The notes beneath the pieces are model-generated. The model was not told the DNA's origin. It did no database searches and saw only the letters and a program-made list of their open reading frames with translations. From positions 1 to 57,196 of the forward strand of contig JANXAL010000091.1 of the NCBI GenBank assembly GCA_025062325.1: DNA of 57,196 nt, read 5' to 3'. Source of the stretch: Roseiflexus sp. (GTDB lineage Bacteria; Chloroflexota; Chloroflexia; Chloroflexales; Roseiflexaceae). Position numbers and translations under genes: made by a program. How positions within the stretch are numbered: the stretch's first letter is position 1; each line of letters starts with the position of its first letter. Shown here in pieces: positions 35,652-45,209 of the stretch.

Positions 35652-37472
35652 TCAACGACCTTCTCGCTTCCACGCCGCCACGTTCCACGTCACCGGCGCC
35701 AGTGCATCGGGAGCAAGACCGCGCACGCTGGGCGCTGCCACGACGATGCTGAGGCGTTGAAAGAGGGGGATCGCCGGCAGCTCCTGCGTCCAGAGTTGCT
35801 GCTGCCGCAGGTATGCCGCAGCGCGTTCGACGGGGTCGAGGGTCGTATCAGCGGTACGCACTGCGCGATCTGCATCGCGGAAACACCAACCAGCAAAGTT
35901 CTCGCCGCGGTAGTTATTGCTTTCGCCGGGAACGGCAGCGCAACTCCAGAGTTGCAGGCCCCCCGGTTCCGGTCCGGCGATCCACCCAAAGAGCGCTAGA
36001 TCGAACTGGCGGAGATAGAGGGGACCGTCCGAAGCGAACATCTCATCGGGCGGCGCTTCGTTGATGTCGATCTGGACGCCGATCGCCCGCATATCGTCTT
36101 GAAATCGGCGAGCGATCTCGCGCCGAACCTCGCTCCCTTGCGTCGTCAGCAATTGCAGGGTCAGGGTGATGCCGTCCGATGACACTCGAACGCCATCGCC
36201 GTCGGAGTCGGTGTAGCCAGCTTCTTCCAGCAGTTGACGCGCCCGGTCGGGATCATATGGGTAGCGAGTCAGTTGATCGGGCGGCGCGGCGAGTTTGTGT
36301 CCCGGTAGCACCCAACTGTCCAGGACGGGCGTTCGCCCGCCGAAGAGCGCATCGGCGATCGCCTGCCGGTTCGTGCCATACGCCAGGGCGCGACGCACGC
36401 GAATATCCTGCAACACCGGAACGTCCAGGTTGAACAGAATGTGCTCCCAGACAGGGCTAGGGATTGTGATGACCTGCAATGTCCCTTCCGCAGCGTCGGC
36501 ATCGAAGCGTTCCAGCACAGTCGGCGAGATTCGATCAGCAATGCCCAGGTCGAGATTGCCGTTGAGCAGATTAGCGCGCAGGAGTTCGAGATCGGCAAAC
36601 TCGCGAAAGACCAGGCGCGATGCCGCTGGCGCCGGACCAAAATAATACGGGTTGCGCTCGAAGCGCAGTTCAGTGGCGGTGCGTTCAACGATCATATACG
36701 GACCATACCCGACCGGCTGGCGGGCAAATGCACTCTCACGCACCCGCGCCGGATCGACGCCCTGGAGCAGATGGCGCGGCAGGGGCGTCCAATAGCTCAT
36801 AAAATAGGCGGCGCCTACATAATCGGGCCGGAGCACGGCACGAGTCGTATGATCGCTTACCTTTTCATACGCTGCGGTCTTCGCCAGCAACTCGGCAGCA
36901 GCATCGCCGGGCGGCGCAGCTTTCGCCAATTCGTAGGCAAACACCGAGTCGTCCGCCGTGACCGGCGTACCGTCGGACCAGCGCAACCGCGGATTCCAGC
37001 GGAACGTGATCACCAACTGATCAACCTGCGTGACAACATCGGTAACTGTGGTCGTCAGAGCGCCGGTTGCGTCGAGGTAGGCGTCTACCTTGCGCAGTTC
37101 TACGTCGCCGTTCTCAAGCGTAGGAATGCGTTCAAGCACGCCGGTAACGGTATAAGCGTAATCATAGGTCAGGATTGGCGAGGGGAAGAGCACCTCAGTT
37201 ATCGAAGCCGTCGCACGACGTGTAGCGGCAGATTGCGGATATGGGTAAAGGTCGGAGGGAAGGTCGAGCGTCCCGATGATCCAGGTATCGCTGCGTTCTG
37301 CGATACGCTCGCCGATAATCGCGCTGGTGGGAATGGGACCGGTCGATGAGGTTGCAGGAATAGGCGTTGGCGTCGCTACGCCGCCTTCGATCGTGCATCC
37401 GACCAGCACGATGCACACCATCATTCGGATCAGAACCAGTTGCACAGAACTTCTACATCGTTGCCGAGCCAT
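35652..37472 (-). CDS. Family 5 extracellular solute-binding lipoprotein (peptide/nickel type)
   Basis: The protein has about 606 residues from the ATG at 37472. The signal peptide has a lipobox (VCIVLVGC, Cys near 26), so it should be lipid-anchored. Residues about 110-600 fit SBP_bac_5: NPRLRWSDGTPVTADDSVFA, LFNLDVPVLQDIRVRRALAY, DPDRARQLLEEAGYTDSDGD. Such proteins bind oligopeptides, nickel or sugars for an ABC importer. No permease or ATPase gene lies next to it, so its partner must be elsewhere. The last residues are encoded inside the pyrimidine-rich repeat region, and the extreme C-terminus may have been remodelled. It is divergent from the M20 homologue gene. Confidence 0.88.
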   Translation of the reverse strand: MARQRCRSSVQLVLIRMMVCIVLVGCTIEGGVATPTPIPATSSTGPIPTSAIIGERIAERSDTWIIGTLDLPSDLYPYPQSAATRRATASITEVLFPSPILTYDYAYTVTGVLERIPTLENGDVELRKVDAYLDATGALTTTVTDVVTQVDQLVITFRWNPRLRWSDGTPVTADDSVFAYELAKAAPPGDAAAELLAKTAAYEKVSDHTTRAVLRPDYVGAAYFMSYWTPLPRHLLQGVDPARVRESAFARQPVGYGPYMIVERTATELRFERNPYYFGPAPAASRLVFREFADLELLRANLLNGNLDLGIADRISPTVLERFDADAAEGTLQVITIPSPVWEHILFNLDVPVLQDIRVRRALAYGTNRQAIADALFGGRTPVLDSWVLPGHKLAAPPDQLTRYPYDPDRARQLLEEAGYTDSDGDGVRVSSDGITLTLQLLTTQGSEVRREIARRFQDDMRAIGVQIDINEAPPDEMFASDGPLYLRQFDLALFGWIAGPEPGGLQLWSCAAVPGESNNYRGENFAGWCFRDADRAVRTADTTLDPVERAAAYLRQQQLWTQELPAIPLFQRLSIVVAAPSVRGLAPDALAPVTWNVAAWKREGR

Positions 37473-37541
37473 ACTGCAGGGAGTGTAGCAGGGTTGCACC
37501 AATTTGTCCAATCGCTGTGTCTCAACTGTTGTGCAACATGC

Positions 37542-37580: not shown

Positions 37581-38930
37581 GTGACTGAGCCAGCCGTCAT
37601 CTCGACTGATCAACTCATCTGTGACCTTGATCACCTCATCAGCCTGCCAGGCAGTCCTGGTCAGGCAGATGAACTGCGCTCCATTGCGACACGAATTGCG
37701 ACAATGATGCGCAGCCGTGGCTTGCGGGCCGAGGTGCACCCGACACCTGGCGCCCCGATTGTTGTCGGTTGGCGCAGTGGGCAGCAGCCATACACTGTAT
37801 TGCTCTATCACCACTACGATACGCCTTCCCCCGGTCCCTGGCGCGCCTGGCGCCACGACCCGTTTCAACTGGCTGAACGTGATGGCATGGTGTATGGGCG
37901 TGGCGTGGCTGAGGGGAAGGGTCCGCTGGCAGCGCACCTCAATGCAATCGCCGCGCTGATCGAAGCAGAAGGCGAACTGCCATGCGGCGTCGTAGTGGTT
38001 GCAGAAGGGGATTATCTGTCTGGCAGCCCCTACCTCGGCACCCTGATCGCCGACCGCCGCGCGATCTTTAAGGCCGATGCCTGCCTGGCAAGCGGGGGTG
38101 ATCGCGATGCCAGCGGAAAACCTTTCTGCTACAGCGGCGCGAAAGGATTGGTGCAGGTGATGCTGCGGGTGCGGCAGACGTTGGAAGCCTTACCTGCAGG
38201 CATGGCTGCGACCGTCCCCAATCCGCTCTGGCGCCTGATCTGGGCGCTCAACCAGATCAAGACCGAGCAGGAAGAAGTGCTCATCGGCGGATTTTATGAT
38301 GCAATTGAAGGTCCTACAACCGAAGAGAATCGCATCCTGCGCACCGTGGCCGCCGACGAGACGGGACGGCGCACTGCCTGGAGCATCGACCAGTTTCTCT
38401 TTGGGTTGACCGGTGCGCCGCTGGTGCGCTCGGAAGTAACGTTGCCAACGTGCAACATCAATCTGCTGCAGACCGAGCCGGTTAGCGATCCGCCGGTTAT
38501 TCCGCGCAGCGCCGCCGCGCGACTTGACTTCCAACTCGTGCCCCGACAGCGTCCCCAGATGGTCGTAGAGGCGCTCCAGGCGCACCTTGCCGCCAAGGGA
38601 TTGTCTGATGTCCTGGTCGAACGCCTGCCCGGCGGGTACCCTCCCGCTCAGTCGCCTATTGATGATCCCTTCGTGCGTCTAGTGAGCGATGTCGGCAGGT
38701 ATATCCACGGCGCGCCGCTGACTGTGCTGCCGCGTGGTCCGTTCAACCTGCCGCTGTTCTATTTCGCCGAAGCGTTCGGCATTCCAGTCGCGTCGGTAGG
38801 CGTTGCGCGTCCGTCTAGCGCGATCTTTGGCGCCAACGAGTGCATCCCGCTCCCCGACCTGGTGCGTCACGGGCAGCATCTGATTGAGGTGCTCTACGCC
38901 TGCGCAACCGCCAACGCCAGCGCCCAATGA
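37581..38930 (+). CDS. M20-family peptidase homologue lacking several catalytic and metal-binding residues
   Basis: The protein has 449 residues from the GTG at 37581, after GCGGAGCACCTCT. Upstream in-frame ATGs would place the start inside the divergent gene's leader. The fold is clearly M20 (dipeptidase/ArgE/CPG2): YHHYDTPSPGP with His78 and Asp80, YGRGVAEGKGPLAAHL, AEGDYLSGSPYLGTLI, and a lid domain at about 185-320. By alignment from memory, the usual Asp of GRGxxDxKG is Glu111, the catalytic Glu-Glu of EGEEEIGS is Tyr145-Leu146, and the final His of the IHGPNE-type motif is Phe416 (AIFGANE). It may be inactive or changed in chemistry. Its stop overlaps the next start (ATGA), implying coupled translation. 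Confidence 0.82.
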   Translation: MTEPAVISTDQLICDLDHLISLPGSPGQADELRSIATRIATMMRSRGLRAEVHPTPGAPIVVGWRSGQQPYTVLLYHHYDTPSPGPWRAWRHDPFQLAERDGMVYGRGVAEGKGPLAAHLNAIAALIEAEGELPCGVVVVAEGDYLSGSPYLGTLIADRRAIFKADACLASGGDRDASGKPFCYSGAKGLVQVMLRVRQTLEALPAGMAATVPNPLWRLIWALNQIKTEQEEVLIGGFYDAIEGPTTEENRILRTVAADETGRRTAWSIDQFLFGLTGAPLVRSEVTLPTCNINLLQTEPVSDPPVIPRSAAARLDFQLVPRQRPQMVVEALQAHLAAKGLSDVLVERLPGGYPPAQSPIDDPFVRLVSDVGRYIHGAPLTVLPRGPFNLPLFYFAEAFGIPVASVGVARPSSAIFGANECIPLPDLVRHGQHLIEVLYACATANASAQ

Positions 38931-40468
38931 TGCTGCCTCGCTTGATCCGCCAGACAATCGCGGCTGATGTTGTTGTCGTGTCGCCGTTGCTCCTGCTGTT
39001 CCTCGCGTTTCTTCTCCTGTACGTCTGGACGGCTGCGCCCGATGTGCTTTCCGGCGACTCGGCGGAGTTTCAACTGGCGGCGGCGCTCCTCGGCGTGCCG
39101 CATCCAACGACCTATCCACTGGCGACGATGCTCGGTCACTTGGCGACTCGGACGCTGCCAGTTGGTACGCTGGCGTGGCGCGTGACGGCGGTGTCCTCGG
39201 CGTGCGCGGCGCTGACGGTCGCGCTGTTTGCACTGCTGGCGCGGCGCGTTACTGGAAACCAGTGGACGGCGCTCATCGGCGCGTTGGCGCTGGGTCTGGC
39301 GCCGGGACTGTGGAATGCTGCCACAATTGCGGAAATCTATGCGTTGCTAGCGCTGCTGATCGTCGCTCTGGCGCTAGCGCTACTGCAGGCGTGGGATGGC
39401 GCTCTGGCGCTGCGCCCGACACGGCTGGCGTCAGCGGCGCTGATTGCCGGTCTCGGCCTGACCCACCATGGGTTGTTTGTCGTGACTGCGCTGCCGCTCT
39501 TTGCTGCCGCACTCGCCGCCAACATATGGCGCGTGAGGCAACAGATGCCGTTACGCGAACTGGCAGCATCCGCCGGATGGGTCAGCCTCGCTTTTTTTGC
39601 GGGCATGACGCCGTGGCTCTATCCGCTGGCGCAGTTTGCCCGCTTCGGTCCATTTGATGGCACAGATTACGGGCTGCCGCGCCACTATTTCTGGGGAGCG
39701 CCGCAATCGTGGGGGGAAGTGATCGATCTGCTGACCGGCGGCGAGGTGCGGCGGGGCATCTTTCGCGTTCCCGACGCCAGGTCTGTGCTTTCAACGCTCC
39801 AGATGGTCGGCAGGCGGCTGTGGTTCGAGTTCGGACCGGTCGGCGCGCCGCTAGGGTTGATAGGAAGCGTGGCGCTCTTGCGACGCGATGCATGGGTCTG
39901 GCGCGCTGCGGCGTGGACGTTTTTTGCGACGCTGGCGTATCTCCTGTTGCTGGGTCCAGCGGTTGGCGATGCGCCGGTCTTTACCCTGCCCATGCTGCTG
40001 CCGTGGGCGCTGTGGATCGCGGTCGGTGCGGATGTGGTCGTTCACTGGGCGCCGTTGCTGCGCGCAAATTGGCGCTACCCGGTAACGCTGGCGCTCCTGG
40101 CGGCGCTAACGCTGGGGTGGGGTGCAACGCGCTACCGCGTGTCGGCAAAACAGCGCCTCTGGCTCTACCGCGAGTTCGCTACTGCAACGCTCGCCGTCCT
40201 GCCGCACAACGCAGTCGTCATAACGCACTGGGAACAGGGAACGACGCTTCTCTACCTGCGCTTTGTCGAAGGCATTCGCCCTGATGTCTGGATCGATGTC
40301 GTCGAACCGGGCGACGACCCGTGGCTCGAACGGGCGCGCCGTCGCTACCCTGATCGCCCGGTGTACTTCGTCGGTCAGCCGGAGAGCGTTGCCGGCATGC
40401 CGGTTGATCTACTGATCGACGAACCATATGCCGATGTGTACCGGTTGCGAGGATCGCCAGATCGCTAA
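38927..40468 (+). CDS. DUF2723 (GT-C-like) polytopic membrane protein
   Basis: The 513-residue protein opens with a membrane helix and then the DUF2723 landmark PDVLSGDSAEFQLAAALLG with HPTTYPLATMLG, which holds the acidic residue used by GT-C glycosyltransferases. About ten helices follow, then a short soluble tail (VVITHWEQGTTLLYL and RPDVWIDVVEPGDDPWLE). DUF2723 proteins are related to protein O-mannosyltransferases (TMEM260-like), so transfer of a lipid-linked sugar outside the membrane is likely but unproven. Its ATG overlaps the TGA of the M20 homologue by four bases, so the two are made together and may act in one pathway. Confidence 0.85.
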   Translation: MMLPRLIRQTIAADVVVVSPLLLLFLAFLLLYVWTAAPDVLSGDSAEFQLAAALLGVPHPTTYPLATMLGHLATRTLPVGTLAWRVTAVSSACAALTVALFALLARRVTGNQWTALIGALALGLAPGLWNAATIAEIYALLALLIVALALALLQAWDGALALRPTRLASAALIAGLGLTHHGLFVVTALPLFAAALAANIWRVRQQMPLRELAASAGWVSLAFFAGMTPWLYPLAQFARFGPFDGTDYGLPRHYFWGAPQSWGEVIDLLTGGEVRRGIFRVPDARSVLSTLQMVGRRLWFEFGPVGAPLGLIGSVALLRRDAWVWRAAAWTFFATLAYLLLLGPAVGDAPVFTLPMLLPWALWIAVGADVVVHWAPLLRANWRYPVTLALLAALTLGWGATRYRVSAKQRLWLYREFATATLAVLPHNAVVITHWEQGTTLLYLRFVEGIRPDVWIDVVEPGDDPWLERARRRYPDRPVYFVGQPESVAGMPVDLLIDEPYADVYRLRGSPDR

Positions 40469-40549
40469 ACTGCGGCTGATGAATATTCACAAAATACTCC
40501 GGCATTCGCTCTGCACCCGGCGGTTGATAGCTATCCGCCACCTGCCCGA

Positions 40550-40824
40550 CGCCTAAAATCGCGGGCTATGGTTGCGAAGCCCGCCTGCGCGGGCTCAACC
40601 GGGCGATCCACCCGCCCGGCGCCTGAAGTCGCGGGCTATGGTTGCGAAGCCCGCCTGCGCGGGCTCGACCGGGCGATCCACCCGCCCGGCGCCTGAAGTC
40701 GCGGGCTATGGTTGCGAAGCCCGCCTGCGCGAGCTCAACCGGGCGATCCACCCGCCCGGCGCCTGAAGTCGCGGGCTACGGTTGCGAAGCCCGCCTGCGC
40801 GGGCTCAACCGGGCGATACTGGAT
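40550..40824. repeat. 70-bp hairpin-rich tandem repeat, four units
   Basis: Units start at about 40561, 40631, 40701 and 40771 with GCGGGCTA(T/C)GGTTGCG, a strict 70-bp period. Each has the palindrome AGCCCGCCTGCGCGGGCT followed by GGGCGATCCACCCGCCCGG. Units differ by only a few bases. A solo inverted copy lies at 53275-53372. There are no unique spacers, so this is not a CRISPR array. Confidence 0.85.
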
Positions 40825-41212
40825 TATTTTCTCAAACTCCAATAGCCCGCAGCTCAGAGAACGCGCGGCTTGGCGGCACAGGTTTACCGGATGTATTTCT
40901 TAACCTTCATTAGCCCGGAGCGCCAGGGCGCCGTCTGACAATCCGTGCGCGCCCGAATCCCAAGACGTCACACCATTGACAAATCGCAAGATTTTCCGCA
41001 ATAATGCACCGGATTTGCTGTTCCGATCATCCTTTGCGACCTGTTACATCGTTCCTTCAAGACGGGACTGTCTGTCAATATGCAGGTATTTATCCTGCCA
41101 GCGGCATTCATCCTTCGACAGGAGCGGGGTGCATACCGCTCGCGCTCTGAGCCTGCCGAAGAGTGCAGCGCCGTATGCCGGACTTGAGTTCTTACTTTTG
41201 AAGGACGTCGCC
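40825..41212. other. Leader region before cas6
   Basis: The region holds the tail of the 70-bp repeat (GGATTATTTTCTCAAACTCC) and a palindromic piece near 41108-41160 (CTTCGACAGG ... GCCTGCCGAAG). Open frames running into cas6 lack a ribosome-binding site. No clear promoter hexamers were found. Confidence 0.4.
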
Positions 41213-42205
41213 ATGCCCGAAGGCGCCGCCGGTTTTGCGCTTCCTGATTTGTCAATTCTGCGTCTTCGCCTGACTCTTCGCCTGCTCACCGATGCGCGTT
41301 TACCCGCGTATAAGGGCGCTATGCTGCGCGGCGGCTTCGGCTATGCGTTTCAGCGCGCCTCCTGCCTGCAGACGTGCTGGGGGCGGTCGCATGAATGCAC
41401 CATTACGCCATTCTGCCCGTATCGCTGGGTGTTTGAAACGCCGCACCCTCCCGATGTAGCGCACATGCACGATCTGCGCGACGTACCGCGCCCGTTCGTC
41501 ATCGTCGCGCCAGACGACGCGCGCACGCGCTATGCAGCCGGGGATGCGCTGGAGTTTGGATTGACGCTGATCGGGCGGGGGACGGAGTATCTGCCCTACT
41601 TTTTGTTCAGTTTTGAGCGCCTGGGTGTGATGGGGCTGGGACGCGATCATGCGCCTTTCCGACTGGAACGGGTTGAAGCCCTGCGCCCATGGCAACCGAC
41701 CGGTACGGTCATCTACCAGGATGGTCAGGTGTTGCAGGGAGCGAATCGCCTGCCGTTCATCGATGCAGCGGCGCTCTCCGCGTATGCGCAGTCGCTTCCC
41801 GCCGATCTGCGCCTGATCCTGCATACGCCGCTCCGTATTCGTGAGCGGGGAGAAGTGCTGCGCACCCTTGACTTTCCGGCGCTGATCCGCGCAGCCTGCT
41901 GGCGAATCGATGCGCTGACGACCTTCCACGGCAATGGACGGTGGCAGGTCGATTACCAGCGGCTGGTCGATGCGGCGCGCGCCGTGGCTGTCGACGATGT
42001 GCACACGCGCTGGGTCGATCTCCACCGCACTTCGACGCGCCAGCAACAATCGATGCCGCAGGGCGGGATCGTTGGCAAAGCGACGCTGCGCGGCGTCGGC
42101 ATCGATCTGCGTCAGTTGCTGGCGCTTGGCAGCCTGGTGCATATCGGGAAGTCCTGCACCTTCGGGCACGGCAGCGTGCGGATTGTCGGGGTTGAACGTC
42201 AGTGA
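41213..42205 (+). CDS. cas6: CRISPR precursor-RNA endoribonuclease Cas6
   Basis: The protein has 330 residues from the ATG at 41213, preceded by TGAAGGACG; the frame runs 237 bases further up but without a start signal. The N-terminal ferredoxin-like half has a cysteine cluster (CLQTCWGRSHECTITPFCPY, about 47-66) common in this Cas6 group. The C-terminal half ends in the glycine-rich RNA-binding loop HIGKSCTFGHGSVRI, the RAMP hallmark. Cas6 cuts the CRISPR transcript within each repeat to give guides for the effector. It lies upstream of cas10 with 185 bases between, so it may be transcribed separately. No array is near; its substrate repeat must be elsewhere in the genome. Confidence 0.88.
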   Translation: MPEGAAGFALPDLSILRLRLTLRLLTDARLPAYKGAMLRGGFGYAFQRASCLQTCWGRSHECTITPFCPYRWVFETPHPPDVAHMHDLRDVPRPFVIVAPDDARTRYAAGDALEFGLTLIGRGTEYLPYFLFSFERLGVMGLGRDHAPFRLERVEALRPWQPTGTVIYQDGQVLQGANRLPFIDAAALSAYAQSLPADLRLILHTPLRIRERGEVLRTLDFPALIRAACWRIDALTTFHGNGRWQVDYQRLVDAARAVAVDDVHTRWVDLHRTSTRQQQSMPQGGIVGKATLRGVGIDLRQLLALGSLVHIGKSCTFGHGSVRIVGVERQ

Positions 42206-42390
42206 TTGATGCATTTGTGACGATCCTGCCAGGTATACTGGGGATGTCGATCCTGAAATCTAATCCGGCGCGTTGTCTTTTCTGACTCAGAGAGAAATCA
42301 ACTGAGCGCGGTGGGTGATAGACCACGGATACGGACGGATCAGGACGGATTGAGACGGATGTCCTTCTGTAAAGACGACACAAGGGCGTT
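42206..42390. other. Gap before cas10 with ACGGAT-type repeats
   Basis: CCACGGATACGGACGGATCA and GGACGGATTGAGACGGATG lie at about 42322-42360, a dispersed motif that recurs at 50915-50955 after the operon. No promoter is certain. AAGGGCG precedes the cas10 ATG. Confidence 0.4.
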
Positions 42391-44565
42391 ATGACCGATG
42401 CAGATGGCTTCACTGGTGCGGTGGCAGCGTGCCTGGCGTATGGAACAGACGTTGATCCGCGTTCGCTGGAAGACGCGGTGCGTCTGGTGTTGGGCGATGC
42501 TCCACAAGCGCCATCCCGCGCTATGCTCGAAGAATTGCACTGGCGCGTGACAGAACGCCTGCGCAGCGCGGGTTTGCCGGAGGAGGCGCAGAGGGTGGCG
42601 CTGGTTTATGGCGGCGCTACGAAGATCAAGGGGTATGTCTTCGAGGCGCCGAAGCTGCCCGAGATTCGCGGCGCCAGCGCACTGCTCGAATGGGTGAACG
42701 ATCATCGTCTTCCGGCGATCTGGCGCGATACGCTTGGTGCGAGCCTGGGAGAGTCGTGCATCATCTACACTGGCGGCGGCAGTTTCCTCGCGTTTGCGCC
42801 CGCTGCGAAAGGCGCAGAACTCGCCGGTCGCATTGAACAAGAGTTTACCCGCCAGACCCTCACAGCCAACAGCGTCGCTGTTGCCGAAACGTTTTCGCTG
42901 ATCGAACTGCGCTACGGACGCCAGCCGCTCGACTTCTGGACGGCGGAGTTTCTGGAGTGCTGGCGCGATCCGCAGTTGCGCGCTGAACTCGAGGCGTACT
43001 ACTACGCTCCGATGCCGGGAAGCGCTGTGGCACGCCTGAGCGACGGCGAGATCCGTGAAGCGGTCCCGGGACGCACGCTCAATAACGATGACATTGCCGC
43101 CGTGCGACGCTTCCTGAACCGCAAGCAGTTCGGCGAACTGGTGACGCTCCTGGCGACAATGTTCAACCGGCGCCGTGATGAGCGCGCCTACGCTGGCGCG
43201 CCGCGTACTCTGCCGCTCTATCCGATGCTGCCATGGGCGGAAAAGTGTGACAGCAGCGACGTGCGCCCCGCCGAATGGAGCGGGACGGTCGCCGGTGAGA
43301 CGCGCGCCTACAGCGAACCCTCGGCGCGCAAACGGTACGTCGGGCAACTGATCAAGCGCGACGATGACGATCAGACGCGCTGGTACACATCAACATTCGC
43401 CTGGCGCGCGCCCGCCGACCTGCGTGATCGCTCGTGGGAAACACAATGGGAAACGTTTCTTAATCAGAATGGCACCAATACGCCCTACCGCCGCGCCATG
43501 GATCAGCAGCAGCGCGTCGCGCCGCCGCGCGACCTGAATGAGATCGGCGCTGCTTCCCGACCGGATCGCTATATCGGCATCATCTACGCTGACGGGAATA
43601 ACGTCGGGCGGTTGATCGCCACCCTTTCGACTCCCGACGCTCTGCACCAGACCTCTCAGTATCTCAGCGACGCTGCAACCAATGCGGTCTTCACCGCGCT
43701 GGCGCACTGCCTGCGACCGGCTGCGGTGCGACACGAGCGGCAGCGAGTGGGCGTGCATCCTTTCGAGATTCTGACGATCGGCGGCGACGATCTGCTCCTC
43801 ATCGTTCCCGGTAATCGCGCCTTTGATGTGGCGCTGATGATCGCGTATGAATTTGAACGATCCCTGGCGGAGCATCTCCTTGCTCCATCAGGCGCTCAGG
43901 CGTCGAACGATATGCGTAAGCATATGCGCTATGCCCGTGAAACGCCGATGACGCTGAAGCCGTACACGCCCTCGATCGGACTGTCGGCGGGCGTGGTGAT
44001 TGCCCACGAATCGGCACCGATCTTCTTCCTGCGCGACCTGGTGGAGGAATTGCTCAAACGCGCTAAGAAACTGGCGCACCGCTACGCCAGGCAACACTAC
44101 TACGGCGGCGCCGTTGATTTCATGGTGCTGAAGTCGGTCACGATGGTCGCCGACACGGTCGAGGCGTTCCGCAAAGCGGCGCTGCACGATGAGAGTGATC
44201 GCCGCCTCACCGCGCGCCCCTACACCTGGCACGAGTTTGCCGGTTTGTTGGAAACAGCGCGGGCGCTCAAACGCGCCAACTTTCCGCGCTCGCAGCTCTA
44301 CCGCCTGCGGCGAGTGATGGAAACGACGCCAGGCGTGATCGCCAGCTCGATGGAATATCTCTACACCCGCGTGCGTCAGAAAGCCCTGAGCGATACGCTA
44401 AGCGAGTACATCGAACAACAGGCATGGCAGTCAGCCGATAAAGCGTTGCGTCGTCCCGTGGCTCCGCCCTGGCTGCCAGTAGCGCATCAGGCATACGAAA
44501 CAATCTGGCCCGATCTTGCCGAGATCTACGACATGGTCCCTGCTGCGGTCGAGGAGGAGGGATGA
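42391..44565 (+). CDS. cas10: Cas10, large subunit of a type III-D CRISPR effector (HD domain absent)
   Basis: The 724-residue protein has no HD nuclease domain at its N-terminus. It starts directly in a small helical region and the first palm-like domain (LVYGGATKIKGYVFEAPKLP, IYTGGGSFLAFA). The second palm, with YADGNNVGRL (Asp401) and intact GGDD at 464-467, should make cyclic oligoadenylate when target RNA is bound. The zinc-ribbon position is degenerate: KCDSSDVRPAEW and YSEPSARK stand where other Cas10 proteins have CxxC pairs. The C-terminal helical D4 domain covers about 580-724. HD-less Cas10 together with csx10 and csx19 is the described mark of subtype III-D. Its TGA overlaps the next ATG. 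Confidence 0.92.
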   Translation: MTDADGFTGAVAACLAYGTDVDPRSLEDAVRLVLGDAPQAPSRAMLEELHWRVTERLRSAGLPEEAQRVALVYGGATKIKGYVFEAPKLPEIRGASALLEWVNDHRLPAIWRDTLGASLGESCIIYTGGGSFLAFAPAAKGAELAGRIEQEFTRQTLTANSVAVAETFSLIELRYGRQPLDFWTAEFLECWRDPQLRAELEAYYYAPMPGSAVARLSDGEIREAVPGRTLNNDDIAAVRRFLNRKQFGELVTLLATMFNRRRDERAYAGAPRTLPLYPMLPWAEKCDSSDVRPAEWSGTVAGETRAYSEPSARKRYVGQLIKRDDDDQTRWYTSTFAWRAPADLRDRSWETQWETFLNQNGTNTPYRRAMDQQQRVAPPRDLNEIGAASRPDRYIGIIYADGNNVGRLIATLSTPDALHQTSQYLSDAATNAVFTALAHCLRPAAVRHERQRVGVHPFEILTIGGDDLLLIVPGNRAFDVALMIAYEFERSLAEHLLAPSGAQASNDMRKHMRYARETPMTLKPYTPSIGLSAGVVIAHESAPIFFLRDLVEELLKRAKKLAHRYARQHYYGGAVDFMVLKSVTMVADTVEAFRKAALHDESDRRLTARPYTWHEFAGLLETARALKRANFPRSQLYRLRRVMETTPGVIASSMEYLYTRVRQKALSDTLSEYIEQQAWQSADKALRRPVAPPWLPVAHQAYETIWPDLAEIYDMVPAAVEEEG

Positions 44566-45209
44566 TCGACGTTACAATCGATCTTGAAGTTCTGAGCGAT
44601 TCGCCGGTGAGTGTCGGCGCTGGCGGCAGCGCCGGAACGCTGGCTGACAAGGTGATCGTGCGCGATGGTCGGGGGCGACCGCTCATCCCCGGATCGCAGG
44701 TCAAGGGGCGCGCGCGTCATGCCGCCGAAGCCATCGCTGCAACGCTTGGGCTGGGCGTGCCGCAATATTTCGGTGATGAGACTGATACCGTCATCCGGCG
44801 TATCTTTGGTTCACCGCAGCACCGGGCGCCGCTCCATTTCGCCAATGTGATCGCTGATGTTGGCGATCAGACCAAGATCGAACCACAATGGTTGAGCCAG
44901 CTCCGCCCCAGTGTGGCGATCAACCGGCGGCGCGGCACAGCGGACGATGAGCGTCTCTTGCTCCAGGAAACCGCGCTGCGCGGGATGCGCTTCATCGCTC
45001 GACCGGCAATCGTCGGCACGCTTCCCGATCTCGGGCATGCGGCGCTGCTCTGGGCAGCGCTGCGCGCCGTTGATCGCTGGGGCGGCGCGAAGTCGCGCGG
45101 ACTCGGCTGGGCGACGACGAATGTGCGAGTGATAGTCAATGGTCAGGAGCAGAATGCCGCTGTTCTCACCGAGGCGTTGCGCGATCTGGTGCGCAGGGGA
45201 GGGGCGTGA
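44562..45209 (+). CDS. csm3: Csm3-like Cas7 RAMP subunit
   Basis: The 215-residue single-RRM RAMP starts with SDSPVSVGAGGS-like sequence (here SDSPVSVGAGGSAGTL) and continues DKVIVRDGRGRPLIPGSQVK, the Csm3/Cmr4 block whose Asp (of ADKVIVRD) cuts target RNA between bases. The thumb region VAINRRRGTADDE and the closing GGAKSRGLGWATTNV glycine loop follow. It forms part of the backbone along the guide RNA. It overlaps cas10 by four bases and csx10 by one to four. A roughly 29-base stretch coding for VAINRRRGTA is identical to one in csx10. Confidence 0.85.
   Translation: MIDVTIDLEVLSDSPVSVGAGGSAGTLADKVIVRDGRGRPLIPGSQVKGRARHAAEAIAATLGLGVPQYFGDETDTVIRRIFGSPQHRAPLHFANVIADVGDQTKIEPQWLSQLRPSVAINRRRGTADDERLLLQETALRGMRFIARPAIVGTLPDLGHAALLWAALRAVDRWGGAKSRGLGWATTNVRVIVNGQEQNAAVLTEALRDLVRRGGA

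Follow-up and report, generated by a model that had tools for sequence, protein, structure and literature searches.

The M20-like protein encoded in the window, by which we mean the whole analysed stretch of 57,196 nucleotides from Roseiflexus sp., is very probably a maintained pseudoenzyme, that is, a peptidase homologue which has been stripped of its catalytic residues and has kept its fold. The loss goes further and reaches back longer than the sequence of one genome could show, and it extends through the order Chloroflexales rather than representing decay in a single genome. The family would offer a clear example of an ancient, single loss of catalysis with prolonged conservation afterwards, and as intact paralogues are available for comparison in the same genomes it is a tractable system for studying the function of M20 pseudoenzymes. 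Chloroflexales genomes probably label the gene with names such as 'M20 family peptidase' or 'dipeptidase', and these would be incorrect throughout the order. The features discussed below are collected in Table 1.

Table 1. Positions and basis of the features discussed (window coordinates unless a locus is named)
Feature	Position	Strand	Basis and remarks
Gene of the M20-fold protein, very probably a pseudopeptidase	37581..38930	+	GTG start, 449 aa; Pfam, alignment, predicted fold, orthologues
H78-Y79-D80, remaining HxD motif	37812..37820	+	alignment
G85-P-W-R-A-W90 loop, 3' of the HxD motif	37833..37850	+	alignment and model
E111 replacing the bridging Asp	37911..37913	+	alignment
Y145-L146 replacing the general-base/metal-ligand Glu-Glu	38013..38018	+	alignment
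S171 replacing the second-site acidic ligand	38091..38093	+	alignment
P205 replacing the lid-domain His, which completes the partner subunit's active site	38193..38195	+	alignment
P304-P305 (KT loop lost) to Q318 (substrate-carboxylate Arg lost)	38490..38534	+	alignment
F416 replacing the last metal-binding His	38826..38828	+	alignment
TMEM260-like (DUF2723) multi-membrane-span protein gene	38927..40468	+	ATG start, 513 aa; Pfam
Divergent SBP_bac_5 (family-5, peptide/nickel-type) solute-binding protein gene, the neighbour that recurs more often	35652..37511	-	Pfam, neighbourhood counts
Apparently permuted solute-binding protein genes	L091:3414-5408, L120:3079-5133, L087:3497-5470	-	plus seven more Chloroflexaceae loci; normal form is the SBP_bac_5 gene of the window
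Loci bearing tilS	L083, L085, L088, L092, L111, L120, L129, L130, L131, L132		
Membrane protein of about 700 residues	L037:10143-12254	+	also L039, L038

Family and fold

The protein matches Peptidase_M20 (PF01546, E 4.5e-13) and, just above the cut-off, M20_dimer (PF07687, E 2e-4) in Pfam, and it scores under every listed cut-off of NCBIfam. Its AlphaFold model is of high confidence (pLDDT 91.7, pTM 0.92) and is matched across its whole length by M20 enzymes in Foldseek and VIA-align, so that both the catalytic and the lid domain of the M20 homology family are present and the fold motifs, described as well kept in an earlier note made from the sequence of this DNA, are indeed part of an entire M20 fold. 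The closest solved relative is the Sulfolobus M20 metallo-carboxypeptidase Sso-CP2 (4mmo; VIA-align Z 41.9, 3.0 Å), with which the protein shares 26% identity over 432 residues, the HxD motif and structural glycines, and it is followed by the cytosolic dipeptidase CN2/CNDP2 and carnosinase (4ruh, 2zof; Z about 40), whereas carboxypeptidase G2 (1cg2) and PepV (1lfw) share the fold at a greater distance (Z 27-29). Of full length and with both domains of the M20 fold, the protein comes nearest to the dipeptidases or carboxypeptidases of the Sso-CP2/carnosinase type. Since a hydropathy check revealed neither a signal peptide nor a membrane span, it would sit in the cytosol, as is typical of the CN2 type. 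Among close relatives within the genus it is 84-91% identical.

Loss of the active site

The active site was aligned with those of Sso-CP2, CN2 and intact paralogues from the same genomes, and eight diagnostic residues were scored in 64 degenerate rows, a few of them near-duplicate records from one genome, and in 44 intact relatives. All 64 degenerate rows retain none, one or two of these residues and the intact relatives seven or eight, with no intermediates, and neither metal site 1 nor metal site 2 is complete in any degenerate row. The HxD motif carrying the first metal-binding His is present in the window protein, H78 being the sole metal-site residue left there; D80 is invariant, and of 63 relatives 18 have Arg and one has Tyr where H78 is expected. 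Where the Glu-Glu pair is expected, the protein has Tyr145-Leu146, and neither Glu occurs in any of the 63 relatives whereas both are present in all 44 intact ones. The bridging Asp is Glu111, at a position occupied by E, H, D, G, A, S or V within the clade, and the last His is Phe416, this position being F, Y, H, R, L, C or N across the clade with His in 8 of 64 rows. These three replacements had been proposed from the sequence in the earlier note and the alignment bears them out, with the qualification that the change from Asp to Glu at position 111 is limited to some species, other Roseiflexus retaining Asp.

Four further losses come to light in addition to these. The acidic ligand of the second metal is missing, the protein having S171 and G172 instead, and none of the 64 rows has this second site entire. 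P205 stands in place of the lid His, which is found in a single row out of 64, Q318 replaces the Arg that binds the substrate carboxylate (0 of 64 rows against 44 of 44 intact relatives), and the KT loop has given way to P304-P305. The distance from P305 to Q318 in the alignment agrees with the 13-residue spacing of Thr330 and Arg343 in CN2. The ligand contacts of CN2 are Glu166, His228, Thr330 and Arg343 (PMC12655758), and since all four positions are replaced, the loss as judged from the alignment affects both the metal sites and the substrate pocket. Compared with Sso-CP2 the protein is likewise devoid of the bridging Asp, the Glu-Glu pair, the second acidic ligand, the last His, the lid His and the carboxylate Arg, and the losses are the same relative to carboxypeptidase G2 and PepV, the references suggested in the earlier note. 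By the same sequence comparison the pattern of replacement exceeds chance, because it is common to 64 aligned orthologous rows.

While vacated metal positions such as 111 and 416 vary freely, a set of other residues has become newly fixed in the degenerate clade, namely G85, W87, R88, E99, R254, R263, W267, F274, E285, N292 and Y353. G85, W87 and R88 are conserved only in this clade and lie in the GPWRAW loop, for the region of which (residues 81-90) the model is of low confidence (mean pLDDT 65). A loop that is conserved and yet of low confidence would fit one that, we infer, becomes ordered upon binding.

Distribution, phylogeny and selection

A profile search over 82 genomes of Chloroflexales, with a threshold of E at most 1e-100, recovers strong orthologues in about 62 of them, distributed over four families; in two genera of one family (g3 and g9 of family f1) the order-wide profile search found no degenerate copy. 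Outside the order, the full-length relatives that were read, comprising the best class-level matches and a GTDB scan, included no degenerate copies and were all intact. A phylogeny of 41 intact rows and 58 degenerate ones, computed with the active-site columns masked, separates the degenerate group from the rest by a branch of SH-aLRT 100, and when the tree is rooted on distant paralogues the group is a clade, the nearest single row (L147) sitting on a long branch. Since the degenerate proteins form one clade even with these columns masked, the simplest reading is that catalysis was lost once, no later than the base of the order Chloroflexales.

The reading frame is open in essentially all members of the four families, one sequence record (L098) containing a stop codon, and mean column identity within the family is 77%. 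Within the genus dN/dS is 0.07-0.11, as compared to 0.06-0.09 for an intact paralogue, and purifying selection has maintained the gene ever since the loss. It is this constraint, resembling that on a working enzyme and acting on a well-supported orthologous group from which the catalytic residues are gone, that marks the protein as a maintained pseudoenzyme. The possibility that the gene is instead decaying, or a pseudogene, could be entertained on account of the lost active-site residues, but it is at odds with the open frames, the column identity and the confidently predicted fold, and is refuted by the selection data; we regard it as most improbable.

Gene neighbourhood

No operon conserved across the order was found around the gene, and the neighbours found instead are solute-binding proteins and permeases, tilS with hpt and ftsH, COX15 with another transporter, and others. 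A divergent SBP_bac_5 gene lies beside the M20-like gene in 22 of 55 loci, with 10 of 12 in its own family and 12 of 43 in the others, and in most of the 12 loci from other families peptide-type BPD permeases and an oligopeptide-type ATPase accompany it. Two intact M20 relatives in Trueperaceae also adjoin such permeases. Chance adjacency is unlikely, because the genome of the window holds only eight strong SBP_bac_5 genes, but given shared ancestry the adjacency amounts to few independent events. The transporter neighbour is missing at many loci, for instance in Chloroflexus and in the two most distant families, and as the solute-binding proteins differ in domain order between the two main families, the neighbouring genes at the various loci may not all be orthologues. 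At ten loci in two families tilS, usually together with hpt and ftsH, is found near the pseudo-peptidase gene, which suggests an old gene order that looks as old as the transporter neighbour. Three further genera of the family have, directly 3' of the pseudo-peptidase gene, a gene for another protein, of about 700 residues with multiple membrane spans and no Pfam match.

Possible functions

Inactive metallopeptidase homologues that are maintained for binding or scaffold roles were reviewed in 2024 (PMC11266112), and the window protein shares their maintained inactivity; a text search of that review for M20 returned no example, only identifiers in its reference list. Text searches of open-access literature returned no study of this protein and none pairing Chloroflexus with peptidase M20, although it may be mentioned elsewhere, for example as a 'non-peptidase homologue' in MEROPS. 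We incline, by a small margin over even chances, to the view that the protein has a binding or scaffold role without catalysis. Metal ligands, general base, lid His and substrate-carboxylate pocket would have been lost once, at the base of Chloroflexales or earlier, leaving a cytosolic and probably dimeric protein that binds rather than cuts, and a ligand or partner may be held by the reshaped cleft with its gained GPWRxW loop and by the residues gained in the lid region (R254, R263, W267, F274, E285). Its intact ancestor probably trimmed imported peptides, and for that reason a peptide or an amino-acid derivative would be the most likely ligand and peptide uptake, marked by the divergent solute-binding protein gene, the most likely setting. 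This ligand class and setting are what fits best with the ancestry of the fold and with the gene neighbours, and a specific link to peptide uptake is nevertheless rather doubtful. The fullest version of the proposal, in which a family specific to the order has turned a peptidase fold into a cytosolic sensor of peptides or amino-acid derivatives that regulates peptide uptake throughout Chloroflexales, for instance by way of the divergent solute-binding protein operon, is unlikely to hold in its entirety.

The main rival is that the protein is a regulatory subunit which, in the manner of other pseudoproteases, forms mixed dimers with an intact M20 paralogue by way of the lid domain and so modulates the paralogue's activity. 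The lid domain has been kept, as seen from the whole-fold match and from PF07687 being detected in 7 of 12 members, intact paralogues occur in the same genome, and in dimeric CN2 this domain's His touches the ligand held by the partner subunit. The protein's own lid His is however gone, so that a mixed dimer would cripple the partner's site. No constant paralogue partner is furthermore evident, most genomes of family f3 showing the degenerate copy only in an order-wide search at E 1e-60, although these genomes nonetheless hold other M20 enzymes, and we consider such a role rather improbable. A rewired enzyme, in which the M20 scaffold carries a new catalytic centre that is metal-free or differently placed, is an alternative suggested by the strong constraint on the gene and by polar residues that are invariant (D80, R107, K113, E420) or gained (E99, R263, E285, N292). 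The four invariant residues are however just as invariant in intact M20 enzymes, for which reason a structural role is likelier for them, the positions once held by metal ligands are free to drift, H78 has been replaced in some relatives, and the alignment reveals no cluster of newly invariant His, Asp, Glu or Cys at the old positions that could form a rewired metal site, all of which makes this alternative distinctly unlikely.

The earlier note had also suggested a non-enzymatic binding protein recruited to surface glycosylation, on the basis of a four-base overlap with the gene of a sugar-transferase-like membrane protein. The overlap is real, the two reading frames sharing ATGA at 38927-38930, and the downstream protein has many hydrophobic segments and matches PF11028 (TMEM260-like, formerly DUF2723; E 1.3e-16), so that it would be a TMEM260-like O-mannosyltransferase. 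Transferases of the TMEM260/PMT type work on the outer face with lipid-linked sugars, whereas the M20-like protein would be cytosolic. An adaptor for the TMEM260-like glycosyltransferase, the two being a translationally coupled pair in surface glycosylation, would agree with the finding that in each of the genus's six species the TMEM260-like gene directly follows the M20-like gene, either overlapping or adjoining it. The adjacency is however absent from every other genus examined: in the nearest one (g5) a TMEM260-like homologue of 72% identity is on a separate contig, in another (g8) the gene is about 131 kb from the pseudo-peptidase gene, and most genomes bearing the pseudo-peptidase have no close homologue of it at all. 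Conversely, g3 and g9 possess a TMEM260-like gene without the pseudo-peptidase. As the pseudo-peptidase persists irrespective of this partner and is without an export signal, an adaptor role is very unlikely, and glycosylation coupling finds no support outside the genus, where the adjacency is absent. As a partner the TMEM260-like gene is confined to a single genus, and it stands outside the order-wide feature. What remains of the earlier suggestion is a non-enzymatic and well folded protein under purifying selection, without the recruitment to glycosylation. The note proposed to look for the same pair and the same substitutions in other Chloroflexota, and across Chloroflexales the degeneracy recurs but the gene pair does not.

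Additional observations

In Chloroflexaceae the solute-binding protein that is divergent from the M20-like gene appears to be circularly permuted. A lipoprotein signal is followed by the C-terminal half (from ...PILxDxRVRxAIAYC), and the N-terminal half comes last (ending ...WEHxDxN). The protein aligns as two swapped pieces to the Roseiflexus form, to the solved AppA and to a Thermus-type peptide-binding protein, and its structure prediction is poor (pLDDT 52.8). A naturally permuted relative that binds sugar is known from Treponema (PMC4990184).

Just 3' of the TMEM260-like gene, at 40538-40817 of the window, there is a tandem repeat of four 70-base units with 95% matches. The region 40976-45209 encodes a Cas6 homologue (PF10040) followed by a 724-residue protein with a GGDD motif and by further frames, and it is probably a type III CRISPR locus, the part after Cas6 being judged by eye.
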